DNA of 33,071 nucleotides from an uncultured Thermogutta sp. (lineage in GTDB: Bacteria > Planctomycetota > Planctomycetia > Pirellulales > Thermoguttaceae), in assembly GCA_937128505.1 (NCBI GenBank), contig CAKZMM010000105.1, positions 1-33,071 of the forward strand. Reading direction: 5' to 3'. Within the stretch, counting starts at the first letter, position 1; the number at the start of each line of letters is the position of its first letter. The position numbers and the translations under genes were made by a program. Below are positions 13,402 through 24,288 of this stretch, piece by piece. The notes beneath the pieces are model-generated. The model searched no databases, was not told the DNA's origin, and saw only the letters and a program-made list of their open reading frames with translations.

Positions 13402-13923
13402 CTAAAACTGGGGTACATTCCAGGCGGAGGATTGGTCGGGTGAACTCGACGACTTTTGGACGCTCTCCTCCGCTTTGGGTGGCGCTTGCGAACGGCACCG
13501 CTTGCAGAGACCCACGAACTGAACCGAGTGATCCAAGACCTCAAATTCCGAGCTAAGCCATGCCGGCGCTTCAACTTGATCAAGGTGTGGATCCAAAATG
13601 TCTACGACCGACCCACACCGAAAGCACGTGGCATGGTGATGCCGGCTCACCCGAGCGTCGAACCTCACCGGCATACCCGTATGGTGGAGCTTTCGCACGA
13701 CGCCCATCGCTGCCAACGTTTCCAGAACGCGATAAACGGTGGTCAGCGACAGTTCGGGCATTTTGGAGCGAAGATCTTCATAAAGCTGATCTGCCGTCGG
13801 GTGATCTTCGCGCCCCAAAAGGGCCTCCAGAACTAGCCGCCGCTGAGATGTAAATCGCACCCCTTGCTGGCGACAAAGTTGTTCAAACTGAGCCAGTCGT
13901 TCTACGATCTCGTTTGGATCCAT
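13402..13923 (-). CDS. Fur-family transcriptional regulator, PerR-type
   Basis: A 173-residue metal-dependent repressor of the Fur family. It has an N-terminal winged helix (about 1-85) with TTVYRVLETLAAMGVV as the recognition region, then a metal-binding dimer domain. Every regulatory metal ligand of Bacillus subtilis PerR has an equivalent with an offset of four: H41, D89, H95, H97 and D108; the two CxxC pairs of the structural zinc site are C100/C103 and C140/C143. Aspartate at the D104-equivalent is typical of PerR rather than Fur, so peroxide sensing is likely. The extra 25 C-terminal residues are Ser/Pro/Gln-rich and probably disordered. The start at 13923 is set by the promoter just upstream; a longer open frame from 14016 would overlap that promoter. 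Confidence 0.9.
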   Translation of the reverse strand: MDPNEIVERLAQFEQLCRQQGVRFTSQRRLVLEALLGREDHPTADQLYEDLRSKMPELSLTTVYRVLETLAAMGVVRKLHHTGMPVRFDARVSRHHHATCFRCGSVVDILDPHLDQVEAPAWLSSEFEVLDHSVQFVGLCKRCRSQAPPKAEESVQKSSSSPDQSSAWNVPQF

Positions 13924-13939
13924 CGTATTGTCTCTTAGG

Positions 13940-13968
13940 AGTCTAGCAGAAATGCAAAGTATTGTCAA
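13940..13968 (-). promoter_or_regulatory. Sigma70-type promoter of the PerR-like gene
   Basis: On the reverse strand TTGACA (13968-13963) and TAGACT (13945-13940) are separated by exactly 17 bases, a consensus -35 box and a good -10 box. The predicted transcript would start about ten bases before the ATG, giving a very short leader. It sits at the edge of a strongly AT-rich stretch. Confidence 0.6.
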
Positions 13969-13993
13969 GTGGTTTTTTTGTGCTGATGACAAT
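13961..13993. promoter_or_regulatory. Inverted repeat overlapping the -35 box
   Basis: ATTGTCA (13961-13967) and TGACAAT (13987-13993) form a perfect 7-bp inverted repeat with 19 bases between. One arm covers the -35 box of the PerR-like gene. This placement suits an operator, possibly for autoregulation; it is not a match to the known Bacillus PerR box. Confidence 0.35.
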
Positions 13994-14573
13994 TCATTCA
14001 ACTTGTTAAAAATCACAAAAAACTGGAAAGAAGGCTCTACTGCAACAATAGTAAATTGCCGAATTTTACAACATTTTTCGTTGAATTCATTAAATTCACT
14101 CGGCCTTAATCACTTAGATTCATCGGACCTTATTCACAGGGACATATTCGCGAGGATTTGCAATCGCATTGGGGGCCCCGGTGTGAGATGCCGAAAGCCA
14201 CGTTAACTCGGGCGTCTAAGATCACCGCTTTGTGGACTATGACAGGATCAGAACTGCTCTCCCCGAACGGCATCCTTTGGGGCGCGATTGTAAATCTTCT
14301 AATCAACTTTGAGCCTTCGTGAGGCGAATTCCCGATTGCGGTGAAATTCGCAGTACACTCGGCCATAAGGAGTGCATCTGCCAATTCGTGCTCGCGCGAG
14401 AATACGCGAGAATACCCGACTGGGCTGAAATTTGCAGCAGATTGCGCCGGCTGAGGCCGTTTGTTTCCTGGGAACCGCGTGATTAGACTATCTGCGCGCT
14501 AAGGTTGTGCCTAGGTGACTACCAAGGCAACGTAGGAATTTAGGCAGCTCACGCACTCAAGGGAGGTTTCTTC
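13969..14573. other. AT-rich spacer between PerR-like and GH29 genes
   Basis: Positions about 13970-14130 are clearly AT-rich compared with the rest of the window and contain a palindrome GAATT-CATTA-AATTC (14083-14097). Further right there is a degenerate direct repeat of about 30 bp at an offset of 84 bases (from 14326 and from 14410) and an exact 10-bp tandem duplication at 14396-14415. No gene. Confidence 0.4.
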
Positions 14574-16352: not shown

Positions 16353-17227
16353 ACCTTTCTTAATACCCTCTAAAGGTCTTAAACTTTCGACGCTTGCGAC
16401 GCTTGCCCGGGGGCTGTCGTGAAGGGCTCGGGTGCAATGGCGGATGGCGTTATTCTTCTCTCGATTTACCGATTGTTTTCCCCCGGTGATTGATGGGGTG
16501 GGTGCCGGTAATGTCCCGGCCTCAATTTAGCCGTTTACTCCGGGGGTGGGGGTAATGAGAAGTAGGGGCCTCAGAAAGTACTCCGAAGCACTTTGATCGA
16601 GTTTCCCGCGACACCGTTGCGTTAACAGGGATTGAGCCGAGGATTAACAGGGATTAAGCCAATCATTGCCCAATCCCAGGAATATGCACCTTTGGCGGTT
16701 GGTCCCGGGTGATGACTACGCCAATCGCAATGTCCTTCATACCCCCCCACGCGGGAAACATTCCGGGCCGCTTTTACGGAGTTGTACCCTCCGAAAAAAG
16801 TAGCACAGTCCGGAGAGTCAACTTGTTCGTCAAAGCCGAACCAAAACCCCGTGGATAGCCCGATAGTGGCTGGCCAAGGAGATACAAGGAGATAAGCGGA
16901 ACGGGTTCAATAACGAAAATGGGTCGTGATGCGTGAATCGAAAACGTAGCCCCCAGAACGATCCGGTTTAAAAGCGCATCAGATTAAGGGGCGAACGATC
17001 CAGCCTTCTTAAAGGGCTTCTCCTGAGGTGATAAGGGACTCTTTTCGGCTTTTTGCTTTTGTCGCCTTGCCTTCCAGTAAACCGCGGCAATAATTCATGG
17101 TTTTCTTCTGGCGGCCAGGCAAGCCTCAAAAAGTGGAAGCTTAGGGGCGAGCTCAAACCGGCCGCGTGTTTAAGGACGATCGATTTTAGGCGTAAGAGTA
17201 CCCATCAATTCAAGGAGATTGACCGCG

Positions 17228-17713
17228 ATGTTAAGTCAGAAGTTGCTCGATGCGCTGAATGACCAGCTCAATGCCGAGTATTATTCCTCGTACCTTTACT
17301 TGGCGATGTCGGCTCATTGCGAGGCAGAAAGCTTTCGAGGGATGGCCCATTGGCTCCGCGAGCAAAGCAAGGAGGAGATGGAACATGCGATGAAGTTTTA
17401 CGATTTCATCCTTTCTCGGGGAGCCAGGGTGCAATTGAAGGAGTTGCCCACACCTCCGAATCATTGGGCTTCGCCGCTTGCCGTTTTCGAGGCGACCTTG
17501 GCTCACGAACGACATATCACGGAGCGGATCCATAAGTTGCTGGACCTGGCAGTTGCCGAACATGACCATCCCGGCCAGGTGTTCCTGCACTGGTTCGTAA
17601 ACGAGCAAGTGGAGGAAGAGGCCGCGGCGCAGCTCATCGTCGATCGGATGAAAATGGTGGGAGATTCGCCTGGTGGACTCCTGATTTTGGATCGGGAGCT
17701 CGGTGCACGGTAA
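17228..17713 (+). CDS. ftnA: Bacterial non-haem ferritin
   Basis: A 161-residue ferritin that oxidises Fe(II) at a dinuclear site and stores iron inside a 24-mer shell. With ATG 17228 as start, the residues align without gaps to Escherichia coli FtnA numbering: E17, Y24, E50, H53, E94, Q127 and E130 are all present, so the ferroxidase centre is complete. There is no haem-binding Met52 of bacterioferritin, and residue 52 is Glu, confirming the non-haem type. AAGGAG stands ten bases before the ATG; the earlier in-frame TTG at 17219 touches that site and is not usable. The gene is monocistronic and lies about 3.3 kb from the PerR-like regulator, a possible regulator by analogy with other bacteria. 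Confidence 0.95.
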   Translation: MLSQKLLDALNDQLNAEYYSSYLYLAMSAHCEAESFRGMAHWLREQSKEEMEHAMKFYDFILSRGARVQLKELPTPPNHWASPLAVFEATLAHERHITERIHKLLDLAVAEHDHPGQVFLHWFVNEQVEEEAAAQLIVDRMKMVGDSPGGLLILDRELGAR

Positions 17714-19313: not shown

Positions 19314-19891
19314 AGTCGATTGATCTTTCGCGGGGAAGTGTCGCGATTGTCTGTGTTTGCGACATAATTCAACTTCCTTTTCGTTAGCTGGCATTAATCA
19401 CCTGCCGCGACGCGGTGGTTTGGTGTTTTCAGTTAGCGGTGATTTTGCAGCGAACCCTACCCCCCTTCTTCCCAAATTTTTCTTGTGGTGCCCGGGATGA
19501 GTGCACCTTTTTCCCAGTTTTACCCGTGGAGCGCTGGGACATCACACTTTTCTGGCCGTTCGGGAGAGTTTGCGCTCGATGGTTGGACTCGAACGGCGGT
19601 CTGATAACTGCGCGAATGTAGCTTCCAACCGAGTAAAGAAATTTCCAAGTGTCGGTTCAATTGTCCCACGGATGCCGCTTTTAACACATCTCAACGTGTT
19701 GAGGCCGCATCATGATTTTGGATTGCCGAATGTCTTCGAAGGTCCTCATAAATGTATCCTTCGACTAAATTTGTGTCGTTCGAGTCTGAACCGTTACCCT
19801 TAATTGATGCTCGACCTCAAACACAATCTTGATTATCGGACATGAGATGTATTGTGCTTGGCTTACCAATCTTTCGGCATCAAGGAGAAAC

Positions 19892-20019
19892 TAAGTTTCT
19901 AAAGAATTTGATCAAACGAGATTTCTAAAAAATCTGGTCAAACGAGATTTCACTAAGTTTGTAAAACGAAGTTTCCAAAGGATTTGATCAAACGAAGTTT
20001 TGAGAGAATTAGATGTAAC
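19892..20019. repeat. Degenerate 26-bp tandem repeat array
   Basis: Five consecutive units: 19892-19917, 19918-19943, 19944-19967 (24 bp), 19968-19993 and 19994-20019, with traces of a sixth starting at 20020. Most begin GAGATTTC or GAAGTTT and end in TCAAAC or a variant. Units 1 and 4 end in the palindrome TTTGATCAAA; unit 2 contains AGATTT-CTAAA-AAATCT, a perfect 6-bp hairpin. The unit length is not a multiple of three, so it is not a protein repeat. Confidence 0.75.
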
Positions 20020-20642
20020 GAAATCTCGCACCTTAGAGAGAAAGTATGTGCAACGATCAGGACATCCGGAGGGAGCCGTGGGATGGAATGATGTCAAAAC
20101 GATACCTAATTGCGGCCTGAAATCAAAACGGCGCAAATAGATGACTAACTTAGCGAATATAGTGACATTAAGAGTTCTGCGCGCTACCCCGTTCTTTTCT
20201 ACCCCAGGACTCAAACCGTGATTCGTCAGACCTTCTGCCGCCCATTGCTGCATTTTTTGCCAAATCCTTCTCGCATGGACCTTACCCGCTGCGGCTCGTT
20301 GTGGGGAGGTCACGTCAACGAGATCTCTTGGTCCCGTGCGTCCTCAACCCATGTTTAGGGACGGAAGCGACGGGCTAATTTTTGGAGAGCGATTTTTACG
20401 GCCAAAACTCAGATATGTACCTCAGTTTTCGCGTGGTTTTCCGTCATTTTATTGAGCGCGGCCCCCCGCCTTTTTTGGAAGGAATTTGTTGCTATTTAGT
20501 TATCCTAACAAGATTCGTGGGTGATCGATACTTATGGGGTGTTTTTCGTCTCGAGTTCGCAAAACTTTTTGCACTCTTTCGACGTAAGTATTGATAACCT
20601 GACTAGGCAATTTTCTTTGCGGCGGGAAGCAGTTGGTCCCGA

Positions 20643-21071: not shown

Positions 21072-21776
21072 ATGCTCGAACTGCAAGAAGTCAAGAAATC
21101 GTTTCCTCAGTGGGATGGTACGCGGCTAGAGATCCTGGATATCCCCTACTTTAGCATGGAGGCTGGCGAGCAGGTTGTCTTGGTCGGTAAGAGCGGTAGT
21201 GGAAAGACGACTTTGCTGCACATCATTGCTGGTATCAGCAGACCGGACAGCGGTTACGTCCGGTTTGATGGTTGGGATATTACGCTTCTGAGCGAGGCAG
21301 AATGTGACCGTTTCCGGGCCAAGAGGATCGGTTACGTCTTCCAAACCTTCAATCTTCTCCCGGGCTTCACTGCTCTTGAAAACGTCTTGTTAAGCATGAC
21401 GTTTGCCGACGGTTGGCCGGACAAAGCCCGGGCCAAATACCTGCTGGAGCGTGTCGGGCTCGGTCACCGTCTAACCCACAAGCCGCCAATGCTCTCCGTC
21501 GGTGAACAGCAGCGGGTGGCTGTGGCGCGGGCGTTGGCCAATAATCCGCGACTCATTCTGGCCGATGAGCCCACGGCAAACGTGGACACCGGCCATCAGC
21601 AGCAGATTATCGATCTGCTTCGGGAGACTTGCGAAGAAGAAAAGGTCGCGCTCCTTCTTGTAACCCATAGTCCGGAGGTGGCGCGACAGTTCCCAAAAAT
21701 AGTGCGCTTGGAAGAGATCAACCAGGTGGGAAAGCGACCGATCATGGAACCGGTTGATCATCAGGTCGGTAGTTGA
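21072..21776 (+). CDS. ABC transporter ATP-binding protein (LolD/MacB type)
   Basis: A 234-residue ATPase of the LolD/MacB/FtsE branch of ABC proteins. All motifs are present: Walker [10 protein letters not shown] (39-47), Q-loop Q91 in [11 protein letters not shown], signature [10 protein letters not shown] (141-150; the usual SGGE is SVGE here, with the key second Gly kept), Walker B LILADEP (161-167, E166 catalytic) and switch H199. This branch drives mechanotransmission rather than ordinary transport. The ATG at 21072 has only a weak upstream site. It is the first gene of an operon with the FtsX-like permease (20 bases downstream) and the HCxxC membrane protein. Confidence 0.95.
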
Positions 21777-21796
21777 GAGCACGTGAGTAGCTGACG

Positions 21797-23347
21797 ATGA
21801 GTCTTTGGAAGATTGCTTGGCGGAGCATGGAACAGCGGGCCTTAGCCTCGTGGCTGACGGCGATTTCCGTGGCTTTCGGGGTGGCCTTGGTCGTGGCCGT
21901 TTTGGTGATCCATAGCGTGGTGGATCGCTCCTTTCGCCGTGGGGCTCAGGGGTATGACCTGATTGTCGGCGCCAAGGGCAGCTCGCTCCAATTGGTGTTG
22001 GATACGGTTTTTTACCTCGGGCAACCGGTGGATACGATTCCTTATAGCTACTATCGCGAGTTCACCGAAGGGCGTTTCGTGCCAGCAGTCCGGGTAGCCA
22101 TTCCGATCTGCACGGGTCACGACTATCAGGGATTTCGCGCGGTGGCCACCACGCCTGAAATGTTCGACCGACTAACTTATCTGGACAACCGGCCTTACGA
22201 GTTTATCGAAGGGCGAAATTTCTATACCGAAAACCCGTTCGAGTGTGTAGTCGGTTATACGGTGGCCCGAAAGTTAGGCATTAAGATTGGGCAAGAGATT
22301 CGGCCCACCGGTCAGGGGCAAGTGGGGGGAGCAGTCCATGAAGATGAGCCCTTCACTGTGGTGGGGATATTGGCCCCGACGGGAACCCCGAATGACCGGG
22401 CCATTTTTCTAAACTTGGAGGGTTTCTTTCAGTGTGAAAGCCATGTCGCGGGACCCAGTTTTGAAGAGCAGGTTTTGAAAGATACGACCTTTTCAGCTAG
22501 CGGCTCGACTGTTTCCGGAAGTACACCGAGTTTTCCGGCCGATAGTGATCGGCCCACTGAACCAGCAGAAATCAGGTCCGTGGAGGAATCTAGTTCGGCG
22601 AAGTTGAACGCGGGGAATGAAGCGGATTCCGCCGCGAAAATAAACTCAGCTCGTGATCCGGCTTCGGCAGGGGAGGGAGCCGCCGGCCACACTGATGGCC
22701 ATTCCCCGGAGTGGGGCGAGGCTTGTACCCATCATGATCATGGGCATCATGATCATGGGCATCATGATCATGCTGATTCGGATGAACACAGGCGGCTGAG
22801 TGCCATCCTGGTGGTTACGGATATCGACAATAATGCGCAGCTTGCCATGAGTTTGCCCCGGGTAATCAACGAAGAGCCGTTTGCCCAAGCCGTGCATCCG
22901 GCACGGGTCATCGCGGAGCTTTTCGACGGTATTGTCGGCAACGTGCAGCTCCTGCTGCTAATTTTGGCTATTTTGGTCGTGATTGTGGCCGGTATCGGCA
23001 TTATGGTGAGTATCTACAATTCCATGAGTGAACGCCGGCACGAGATCGCGATCATGCGGGCTTTGGGGGCCAGCCGTAGCACTGTGATGGCCATCATCCT
23101 CACCGAGTCGATTCTCCTATCGCTGGGAGGCGGTTTGCTGGGGACATTCATGGGGCACACTTTGGTCGGGTTTTTGAGCCCGGTGATCGCCGAGCAAACC
23201 GGGGTGATCGTCCGGGCCTTTGACTTTCAGCTTGTGGAACTGGTGTTGATTCCGGGACTCATAGTTTTGGCGACCATTGTCGGCTACTTACCGGCAGTGG
23301 CAGCTTATCGGACGGACGTGGCCAAAGCGTTGATCGCTGCCCCGTGA
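21797..23347 (+). CDS. FtsX/MacB-type permease with His-rich insert
   Basis: A 516-residue permease partner of the preceding ATPase. Topology: TM1 (about 17-39), a large extracytoplasmic MacB-like domain (about 40-375), then TM2 (382-404), TM3 (430-455) and TM4 (480-502), the FtsX arrangement, with ERRHEIAIMRALGAS, the coupling helix motif, at about 408-425. The extracytoplasmic domain is interrupted at about 225-335 by a low-complexity Ser/Glu/Ala-rich linker that ends in a histidine-rich tract from residue 312, (HHDHG)n with three units plus flanking His, encoded by an exact 15-bp DNA repeat. Such tracts usually bind Zn, Ni or Cu. A similar ATPase-permease pair is known from Pseudomonas (the PA4063-PA4066 zinc-linked cluster, from memory). 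The His tract suggests metal sensing or capture; the substrate is not known. Confidence 0.88.
   Translation: MSLWKIAWRSMEQRALASWLTAISVAFGVALVVAVLVIHSVVDRSFRRGAQGYDLIVGAKGSSLQLVLDTVFYLGQPVDTIPYSYYREFTEGRFVPAVRVAIPICTGHDYQGFRAVATTPEMFDRLTYLDNRPYEFIEGRNFYTENPFECVVGYTVARKLGIKIGQEIRPTGQGQVGGAVHEDEPFTVVGILAPTGTPNDRAIFLNLEGFFQCESHVAGPSFEEQVLKDTTFSASGSTVSGSTPSFPADSDRPTEPAEIRSVEESSSAKLNAGNEADSAAKINSARDPASAGEGAAGHTDGHSPEWGEACTHHDHGHHDHGHHDHADSDEHRRLSAILVVTDIDNNAQLAMSLPRVINEEPFAQAVHPARVIAELFDGIVGNVQLLLLILAILVVIVAGIGIMVSIYNSMSERRHEIAIMRALGASRSTVMAIILTESILLSLGGGLLGTFMGHTLVGFLSPVIAEQTGVIVRAFDFQLVELVLIPGLIVLATIVGYLPAVAAYRTDVAKALIAAP
22730..22771. repeat. 15-bp repeat encoding the His-rich tract
   Basis: CATCATGATCATGGG occurs twice exactly (22730-22744, 22745-22759) and a third time without its last codon (22760-22771). 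Being in frame, it can expand or contract without breaking the gene. Confidence 0.9.
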
Positions 23348-23577
23348 GGGTGAGAGCAACCGAATCGCGCGCGATCACTTGCCGACTTGGTCGGTGGGGT
23401 GATCCTTGTAACCGGAGGATGATTTGCAGGACATTTTTGCGGTGGAATCATCGCCCTTAAAGGCGGAGTTACCGCAAGCTTGTGCGGACGATTTTGGCAA
23501 TTAATCTCGGCGGGGGTTTGCCGCGTTAGGGAACTGGAAATAATGGCTGCGATGAATCCCTGGAACGGAGAGTGACG

Positions 23578-24288
23578 ATGTCGCAGGATGTCATGACCGG
23601 GACCTTCCGACCGTTGGTAGCGGACCGGTCCCTTCGAAGGCAGTTCGAACGAGCGGGTATATCTCGTTACCGCAGCGTAAGTTTGGCTGCGGTGCTCAGC
23701 GTGGTGTTGGGCAGTTTATCCATCCTTAGCGTATTCAGTTGGTTATTCCATTTCATACCTCTGACGGCGCTGGGAATGTCGCTTTGGGCGCGCTACCGCA
23801 TTAGTCGGCGGCCGGAAATCCTCACCGGAAGTGGCATAGCGACTGCCGGCATTATTATCACCTTGGTGACCTGGAGTGTGGGAACCGTCGGCCTGCTCTA
23901 TTTGTTATCGAAGGAAGTGCCCCACGGATATACCCGGCTGACCTTTGAAATGCTTCTTCCAGGGGACTTGAAATCCGGAAAGTTTGTGCCCCCGGATATC
24001 GAAAAGCTCGAGGGGGAGAAAGTGTTTTTGAAGGGGTACATTTACCCGGGCCGGCAGACGATCAACTTGAAGAATTTCTTGCTGGTTCCTACGATCGGTC
24101 ACTGTAAATTTTGTACATCTCAGATTGCGCCACACGAAATTGTGCAGGTTGAATTGGTGGGGGATCTGAAGACCGAATACACGAGCTATCCTACCCGGGT
24201 AGGGGGAAGGCTCCGAATCGACAAGGATGTGGCCGAAGGGAAAGCCCACGGACTCCCCTATAGAATCGAGGCCGACTACATCCGTTGA
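23578..24288 (+). CDS. Membrane protein with C-terminal DUF3299-like domain
   Basis: A 236-residue protein. Residues about 33-70 and 83-110 are hydrophobic and likely form two or three membrane helices, with a DUF4190-like look. The C-terminal half (about 120-236), outside the membrane, has GEKVFLKGYIYP and LLVPTIGHCKFCTSQIAP (HCxxC at 175-179), then VELVGD and a final beta-strand. This resembles the DUF3299 domain of the Pseudomonas zinc-linked ABC cluster, a similarity I judge from pattern only. The HCxxC motif could bind a metal or be redox-active. The ATG at 23578 follows GGAG by seven bases; a GTG six bases earlier is less likely. It is about 230 bases downstream of the permease gene, same strand, so probably co-transcribed. 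Confidence 0.65.
   Translation: MSQDVMTGTFRPLVADRSLRRQFERAGISRYRSVSLAAVLSVVLGSLSILSVFSWLFHFIPLTALGMSLWARYRISRRPEILTGSGIATAGIIITLVTWSVGTVGLLYLLSKEVPHGYTRLTFEMLLPGDLKSGKFVPPDIEKLEGEKVFLKGYIYPGRQTINLKNFLLVPTIGHCKFCTSQIAPHEIVQVELVGDLKTEYTSYPTRVGGRLRIDKDVAEGKAHGLPYRIEADYIR

Follow-up and report, generated by a model that had tools for sequence, protein, structure and literature searches.

The closest described relatives of the locus analyzed here are the Zrg operons, zrgABCDE of Vibrio and PA4063-PA4066 of Pseudomonas aeruginosa. According to published reports, the five zrg genes of V. parahaemolyticus are up 76- to 206-fold in zinc-deficient medium and loss of zrgA hampers growth at low zinc, while the V. 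cholerae work assigns ZrgA to a zinc importer as its binding protein, and loss of zrgA hampers low-zinc growth in a znuA-deficient background. In P. aeruginosa, PA4063-PA4066 is described as Zur regulated and PA4063 as a zinc-binding protein of the periplasm in which two loops are rich in His. When PA4065 was lost from a znuA zrmB strain, intracellular pyochelin and cobalt increased, and pyochelin-cobalt export was proposed. The role of the system is thus disputed (zinc import in the Vibrio papers versus pyochelin-cobalt export in the Pseudomonas paper). Here we describe a Zrg-like operon without ZrgA at positions 21072 to 24288 of contig CAKZMM010000105.1 from an uncultured Thermogutta sp.; the whole 33,071-nucleotide stretch is referred to as the window. 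In this operon a histidine-rich module lies within a loop of the permease itself. The permease is nearly universal in the host's order (match at E ≤ 1e-15 in 192 of 196 genomes), and natural ZrgA-free versions with the histidine module in cis are a simpler test system for the disputed function.

All three genes of the operon are on the forward strand. The first (21072 to 21776, 234 amino acids) encodes a ZrgC-like ABC ATPase of the LolD/MacB/FtsE class (Pfam ABC_tran, E = 8e-35), and the second (21797 to 23347, 516 amino acids) encodes a ZrgB-like permease of the FtsX/MacB type (MacB_PCD, E = 9.7e-18; FtsX, E = 5.7e-16). The third (23572 to 24288, 238 amino acids, GTG start) encodes a ZrgE/PA4066-like protein that combines a DUF4190-like part (E = 6.6e-07; 29.4 bits, below the Pfam cut-off of 35) with a DUF3299 domain of the OB-type fold (PF11736, E = 1.5e-05; 25.6 bits, above the cut-off of 22). 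An earlier note, made from the sequence alone, had recognized a LolD/MacB-type ATPase, an FtsX-like permease, and a protein with an HCxxC motif in this region and had likened them to a zinc-linked Pseudomonas cluster. The open reading frames (ORFs), the Pfam matches, and the motif HCKFC at residues 177 to 181 of the third protein (24100 to 24114, +) bear this out, and the permease and DUF3299 protein are indeed related to PA4065/ZrgB and PA4066/ZrgE. A ZrgC-like ATPase and a ZrgB-like permease are encoded by separate adjacent genes, and a DUF3299 protein, recognized by both its Pfam score and its 4hsp-like fold, is encoded in the same operon. What is missing is the His-rich ZrgA (DUF2796, PF10986). 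The PF10986 profile has no match in the host genome and none in any of 117 genomes of the host's order; the same model recovered ZrgA in 6 of 6 known-positive genomes. We conclude that the operon is a ZrgA-less variant of the Zrg system and not a member of it.

The window operon resembles Zrg in having an ATPase, a split FtsX/MacB-type permease, and a DUF3299 protein in one operon, in the permease Asp/His positions that the two have in common, and in the presence of a His-rich module. It differs in that this module is a loop of the permease and not a ZrgA protein, in that the permease has His108 for Asp and no His at 171/172, and in that the DUF3299 protein is longer, has the DUF4190-like part, and carries HCxxC in place of ACIHxPPPP. 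The permease is 27 to 36% identical to 45 Zrg-type permeases, and on the tree the permeases of the host's phylum are a sister group of the Zrg-type permeases and are not nested among them. A tblastn search of plasmids with the permease returned 114 records, none of which spans 80% of the query; the matches include operons annotated as DUF2796-ATPase-permease-DUF3299 in P. aeruginosa and as Fur-DUF2796-ATPase-permease-DUF3299 in Phaeobacter inhibens.

Comparison with better-known relatives gave no closer assignment. The AlphaFold2 model of the permease (45 homologs, pLDDT of 80.5) has as its nearest solved folds, by VIA, 5xu1_M (Z = 23.2), LolE (9rlc_E, Z = 21.0), and MacB (5gko_A, Z = 18.5). 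Like MacB, a type VII ABC transporter that works by mechanotransmission, the permease has a fold with a large extracytoplasmic domain; unlike MacB, it has its ATPase as a separate chain, a His loop, a DUF3299 partner, and no MacA-like or other adaptor gene among the ORFs beside the operon. The separate LolD-like ATPase and the LolE-like fold recall LolCDE, which differs in having two permease genes, not one, and in its partner protein. The highest-scoring NCBIfam family for the ATPase is LolD (202.8 bits against a cut-off of 307.75), and the C-terminal part of the permease is near several FtsX-type families. Other scores are 43.3 against 362.45 for LolC/E, 169.9 against 264.85 for FtsE, and 36.2 against 255 for FtsX; the MacB model, with a cut-off of 966 bits, gave 39.7 for the permease and 152.3 for the ATPase. 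Because all of these scores are far below the curated cut-offs, we do not assign the operon to LolCDE, FtsEX, or MacB.

The His-rich loop comprises permease residues 214 to 331 (22436 to 22789, +) and contains 13 His in 118 residues, compared with 6 His in the other 398 residues of the protein (binomial P = 3e-8 against the permease's own background). In the model, the loop is disordered or of low confidence at approximately residues 230 to 320 (pLDDT of <50 at 230 to 315 and 317 to 320); it is flanked by ordered helices and lies between the first and second of four long helices. We take these four to be transmembrane helices and, from the family, the two that border the loop to be TM1 and TM2. 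Near its end is a 15-bp tandem repeat encoding HHDHG (22730 to 22772, +; 2.9 copies with 100% match by TRF). The earlier note had placed this tract at residues 312 to 331 within an insert of 110 residues. The repeat proper runs from residue 312 to approximately 326 and the His-dense tract continues to 331, while relatives accompanied by ZrgA typically have a loop of about 30 residues, some 90 fewer than here; both statements therefore hold closely. The same note had proposed that a histidine metal module was fused into the permease, and this stands only in part. The module is present in cis where ZrgA is absent, but the loop does not look like a ZrgA fusion: it is of low complexity and disordered in the model, and it is not a second folded domain. 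For this model and for that of the third protein, the alignments were drawn from loci outside the host's phylum. A search by title, abstract, and terms found no published description of a His-rich loop in a Zrg-type permease.

In order to compare the loop with ZrgA, we used 86 loci from outside the phylum: 6 plasmid loci and the 80 out of 400 others that are most similar to a cis-type permease from a rhodobacterium, which are not a random sample. At least 5 loop His without ZrgA in the locus were found in 21 loci, ZrgA with fewer than 5 loop His in 58, both in a single locus (L162, Idiomarina tyrosinivorans), and neither in 6. The Fisher P value for this near-exclusion is 1e-13 when phylogeny is ignored, and DUF3299 is present in 83 of the 86 loci. 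One of the 21 loop-only loci (L156) is cut upstream, and its genome is without ZrgA. Among the six loci with neither feature, two are cut at a contig end, and one (L126) has a permease truncated next to an IS6 transposase. For three of the six, the whole genome was searched, and in each case ZrgA is encoded elsewhere in it. When three Idiomarinaceae loci with common upstream neighbors were inspected by eye, a ZrgA-like gene preceded the ATPase in one (5 loop His) and was absent in the other two (8 and 6 loop His). In a second draw, made from the class to which Idiomarina belongs, 31 of 274 genomes had a match; one of these is the query genome, and the other 30 were examined. ZrgA is present in 20 of these loci, all with ≤2 loop His; two loci have 9 and 10 loop His with no ZrgA in view, the second of them being cut upstream. 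The permeases with the loop fall in several places on trees of 91 rows (22 of 59 phylum loci and 68 of 86 others, 18 near-duplicates having been dropped) and 69 rows (4 phylum and 64 other loci, 22 having been left out, including four truncated or divergent ones). These observations are suggestive of a cis/trans swap of the histidine module between the permease loop and ZrgA.

The loop is also found, in the same place, in many relatives within the phylum. Using a threshold of E ≤ 1e-10, we found a permease match in 153 of 294 phylum genomes, which is a looser count that may take in other FtsX permeases. At 59 phylum loci, an ATPase homolog accompanies the permease in 56 and a homolog of the DUF3299 protein in 39. 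Loops were counted in 54 of these loci plus the window, since five (L113, L114, L118, L119, and L123) have merged or doubtful ORFs. The 55 loops range from 6 to 197 residues and from 1 to 40 His; 32 of them, including that of the window, have at least 5 His, as do 16 of 20 relatives in the host's family. We conclude that the His loop is a common alternative architecture that recurs in several phyla. It is neither unique to the host genome nor, as the earlier note had supposed, unusual. One locus (L113, 4523 to 7408, +) has a Zrg-like permease ORF of 961 amino acids with a much larger interruption between its two halves.

A second feature of the permease is a set of conserved Asp/His positions. 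In an alignment of the window permease with 45 homologs from outside the phylum, His181 (22337 to 22339, +) is His in all 46 rows. His is also found in 45 rows at column 171 and in 45 at column 214, and Asp is found in 45 at column 108; the window is the exception each time, with His108 (22118 to 22120, +) in place of Asp and no His at 171/172. The loop-start His of those 45 rows is aligned two columns before window His216 (22442 to 22444, +). In the alignment of 37 permeases of the phylum, His is found at 172 in 29 rows, at 181 in 20, at 183 in 30, and at 216 in 36. The window permease retains His181 and His216. A pattern for the two middle histidines is matched by 44 of 59 phylum loci and 76 of 86 other Zrg-type loci, compared with 0 of 25 other FtsX permeases from the host genome and its relatives. 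Over 55 rows, His108 occurs in 8 of 9 rows without a 171/172 His versus 5 of 46 with one; since all 13 rows with His108 are the window or its family, this association may represent few events. The occurrence of positions 108, 171/172, 181, and 214/216, all in the extracytoplasmic domain, nearly throughout the permease family suggests that the permease itself handles metal at a putative site formed by these residues, which are named positions to mutate.

Based on these comparisons, our tentative interpretation, which we place somewhat below an even chance, is that the operon encodes a Zrg-type ABC machine of the mechanotransmission (MacB/LolCDE) kind that handles a transition metal outside the cytoplasmic membrane and has its histidine collector in cis. 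The metal would most likely be zinc. The cytoplasmic ATPase would drive movements of the extracytoplasmic domain of the permease, which would present the Asp/His site, conserved nearly throughout the family. The disordered loop, beginning at His216, might gather or buffer metal beside this site, a role that in proteobacteria has been suggested for ZrgA, the separate His-rich protein. The DUF3299 protein could then receive the metal, or give it up, through its Cys site (HCxxC in this case). An ABC motor serves metal delivery outside the cytoplasm in NosDFY-NosL copper assembly also; the likeness is one of idea, with no sequence relation claimed. Metal handling is the best-supported role, and sensing, import, and export are indistinguishable from these data, which support the metal-sensing role raised by the earlier note neither way. 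A broader proposal, which we consider rather doubtful as a whole, is that the His-rich collector of Zrg systems moves freely in evolution between a separate protein (ZrgA or, at two distant phylum loci, unrelated His-rich lipoproteins) and a permease loop, and that the permease itself, with its conserved Asp/His site, would be a mechanotransmitter that handles metal, neither an ion importer nor a drug-type exporter.

A number of observations weigh against our interpretation. The trees yield only three independent contrasts on well-supported branches (four on all branches); about two are in the expected direction, one shows no difference, and none is opposite, and the sign test is not significant. 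With only three or four independent contrasts, the cis/trans swap is suggestive and not proven. In the second draw, eight of the 30 loci have neither loop nor ZrgA, and although four of these are cut upstream, four are not; inspected by eye, these four have no ZrgA-like or His-rich ORF adjoining the permease genes in the coding direction, and in one a ZnuA-like ORF rich in His lies about 3 kb away. A whole-genome PF10986 search of 20 cis-type genomes found ZrgA elsewhere in 8 and none in 12. Of six extra ZrgA genes, four are beside a second ATPase and permease and two, those of Woodsholea and Aquisalinus, are not, and these lone ZrgA proteins could serve the cis permease. (The Aquisalinus and Woodsholea genes, L218 and L219, have no ATPase or permease match within about 1.5 kb, and the Zrg-type permease of each genome has a His loop.) The host's genus lacks His at 171/172 and does not match the pattern for the two middle histidines. 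In V. cholerae, the His-rich region of ZrgA is reported as not essential. Finally, a control with other FtsX permeases was weak. It consisted of 30 loci (5 Zrg type and 25 other, several of them partly read) from 65 FtsX matches in 7 genomes. Among the 25 others, the highest count in a 30-residue stretch is ≤4 His for 23 and 5 for one; the last reads 8, in a part where the reading is unsure, so two of 25 reach 5 His per 30 residues, but only 2 of 5 Zrg-type permeases do. On this weak control, the idea that a His tract is a general trait of FtsX permeases in these genomes is not supported.

The distribution within the phylum also counts against our interpretation and bears on its strongest rival. 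Fewer than 5 loop His are found in 23 of the 55 homologs, including members of the host's family; the earlier note had named homologs without the tract as evidence against its own proposal, and such homologs are common. Two relatives of the same genus have 7 and only 4 loop His, respectively, and no HHDHG repeat. No other same-strand ORF with 8 His per 30 residues was found at 22 of the 23 His-poor loci, the exception being L121. From these two counts, the tract is not essential to the permease family as a whole. Right after His-poor Zrg-type permeases at two distant phylum loci (L114, 3435 to 3959, −, and L121, 3367 to 3918, −), we observed His-rich lipoprotein-like ORFs that are unlike ZrgA by eye; these look like a trans module of another kind. 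The rival explanation is that the loop is permissive and the tract within it a neutral spacer of low complexity, prone to slippage, that the transporter works without the tract, and that it has no metal role. We regard this as unlikely, although it accommodates the lack of a replacement at nearly all His-poor loci, the perfect 15-bp repeat that same-genus relatives do not have, the wide range of loop length and His content, and the low model confidence across the loop. Against it, His enrichment, beyond mere length, recurs at this position in several phyla, and the loop nearly excludes ZrgA from the same locus.

Less probable still is a MacB-kind exporter of a metallophore or metal complex, in which the loop would handle metal at the outer exit. 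The MacB-like permease fold is consistent with this, and upstream of the ATPase at one rhodobacterial cis locus is a gene for a protein annotated as biotin/lipoyl type (another locus has a similar ORF by eye), but no adaptor gene was seen next to the window operon. To our knowledge, a DUF3299 protein and the conserved His set are not features of MacB, and transporters with the MacB/LolCDE fold do not import ions; the first point tells against an exporter, and the second tells against the zinc importer considered below. The literature is divided, in that the pyochelin and cobalt phenotype of the P. aeruginosa PA4065 mutant (znuA zrmB background) and its authors' proposal favor export, whereas in the V. 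cholerae work the same operon is taken to import zinc. Zinc import as published for ZrgABC, with the loop as a tethered substrate-binding module, would agree with the low-zinc growth defects described in the Vibrio reports (in V. cholerae without znuA) and with the presence of the loop where ZrgA is missing, but we consider it very improbable, as the P. aeruginosa study argues against import and the host genome already encodes two ZnuA-family proteins.

The model of the third protein (pLDDT of 77.6) has two long helices, from which we infer that it is probably membrane anchored, and a beta domain. Its top Foldseek match is 4hsp (PA4066, DUF3299; E = 6.4e-07), and OB-fold proteins come next. 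Sequence comparison without the structure gives only a weak match to 4hsp (E = 0.12). The first Cys of the HCKFC motif (C178) is invariant in three alignments. The surrounding motif is HCxxC or xCxxC in the host's family, CCF in the other aligned phylum members, and, in proteobacteria, ACIH with PPPP after it. TCPFC occupies this position in a Deinococcus protein that can be aligned with the DUF3299 proteins but has no Pfam model match. At a Deinococcus locus (L126, 3905 to 6584), the Zrg-like permease cut short beside the IS6 transposase has a CPFC protein upstream that is DUF3299-like by alignment.

ORFs with a CPFC-type motif near the N terminus are present at 17 of 39 phylum loci outside the host's family and at none of 20 inside it. 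They are mostly 400 to 620 amino acids long, have a TL/TF..E stretch after CPFC, and are beside the permease (e.g., L094, 2014 to 3699, −; L097, 5853 to 7433, +; and L100, 2972 to 4459, −). Neither the three CPFC ORFs scanned against Pfam nor a rhodobacterial protein with a similar N terminus (L129, 7279 to 8322) matched a family over its cut-off. In the host genome, the sole match to a CPFC protein has an E value of 0.098 and internal stops. We considered whether the His tract is tied to a nearby CPFC protein and found no pattern, as loci with 23 to 40 His have a CPFC protein too.

With regard to zinc regulation, two negative results are also set against our interpretation. No near-perfect Zur-like palindrome was found upstream of the operon by a weak scan that found none at the Fur-family/ZnuA region of the host either, and the cis-type loci outside the phylum are, by eye, without zinc-gene neighbors. 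Alignment of the upstream region with those of two same-genus loci was uninformative. The window contains a Fur-family gene (13402 to 14016, −) about 3 kb from a ferritin gene (17219 to 17713, +); its top scores are for PerR/Fur, with Zur lower and all below cut-off, and it therefore does not speak for zinc control. A 26-bp tandem repeat (19888 to 20022; 5.3 copies with 72% match by TRF) separates smpB from the operon. The two ZnuA-family proteins of the host are encoded on other contigs. On one host contig (C58, locus L226), a Fur-family gene adjoins genes for a His-rich ZnuA-family protein and an ABC ATPase, and a directly repeated sequence of about 26 bp is found upstream of the ZnuA gene.

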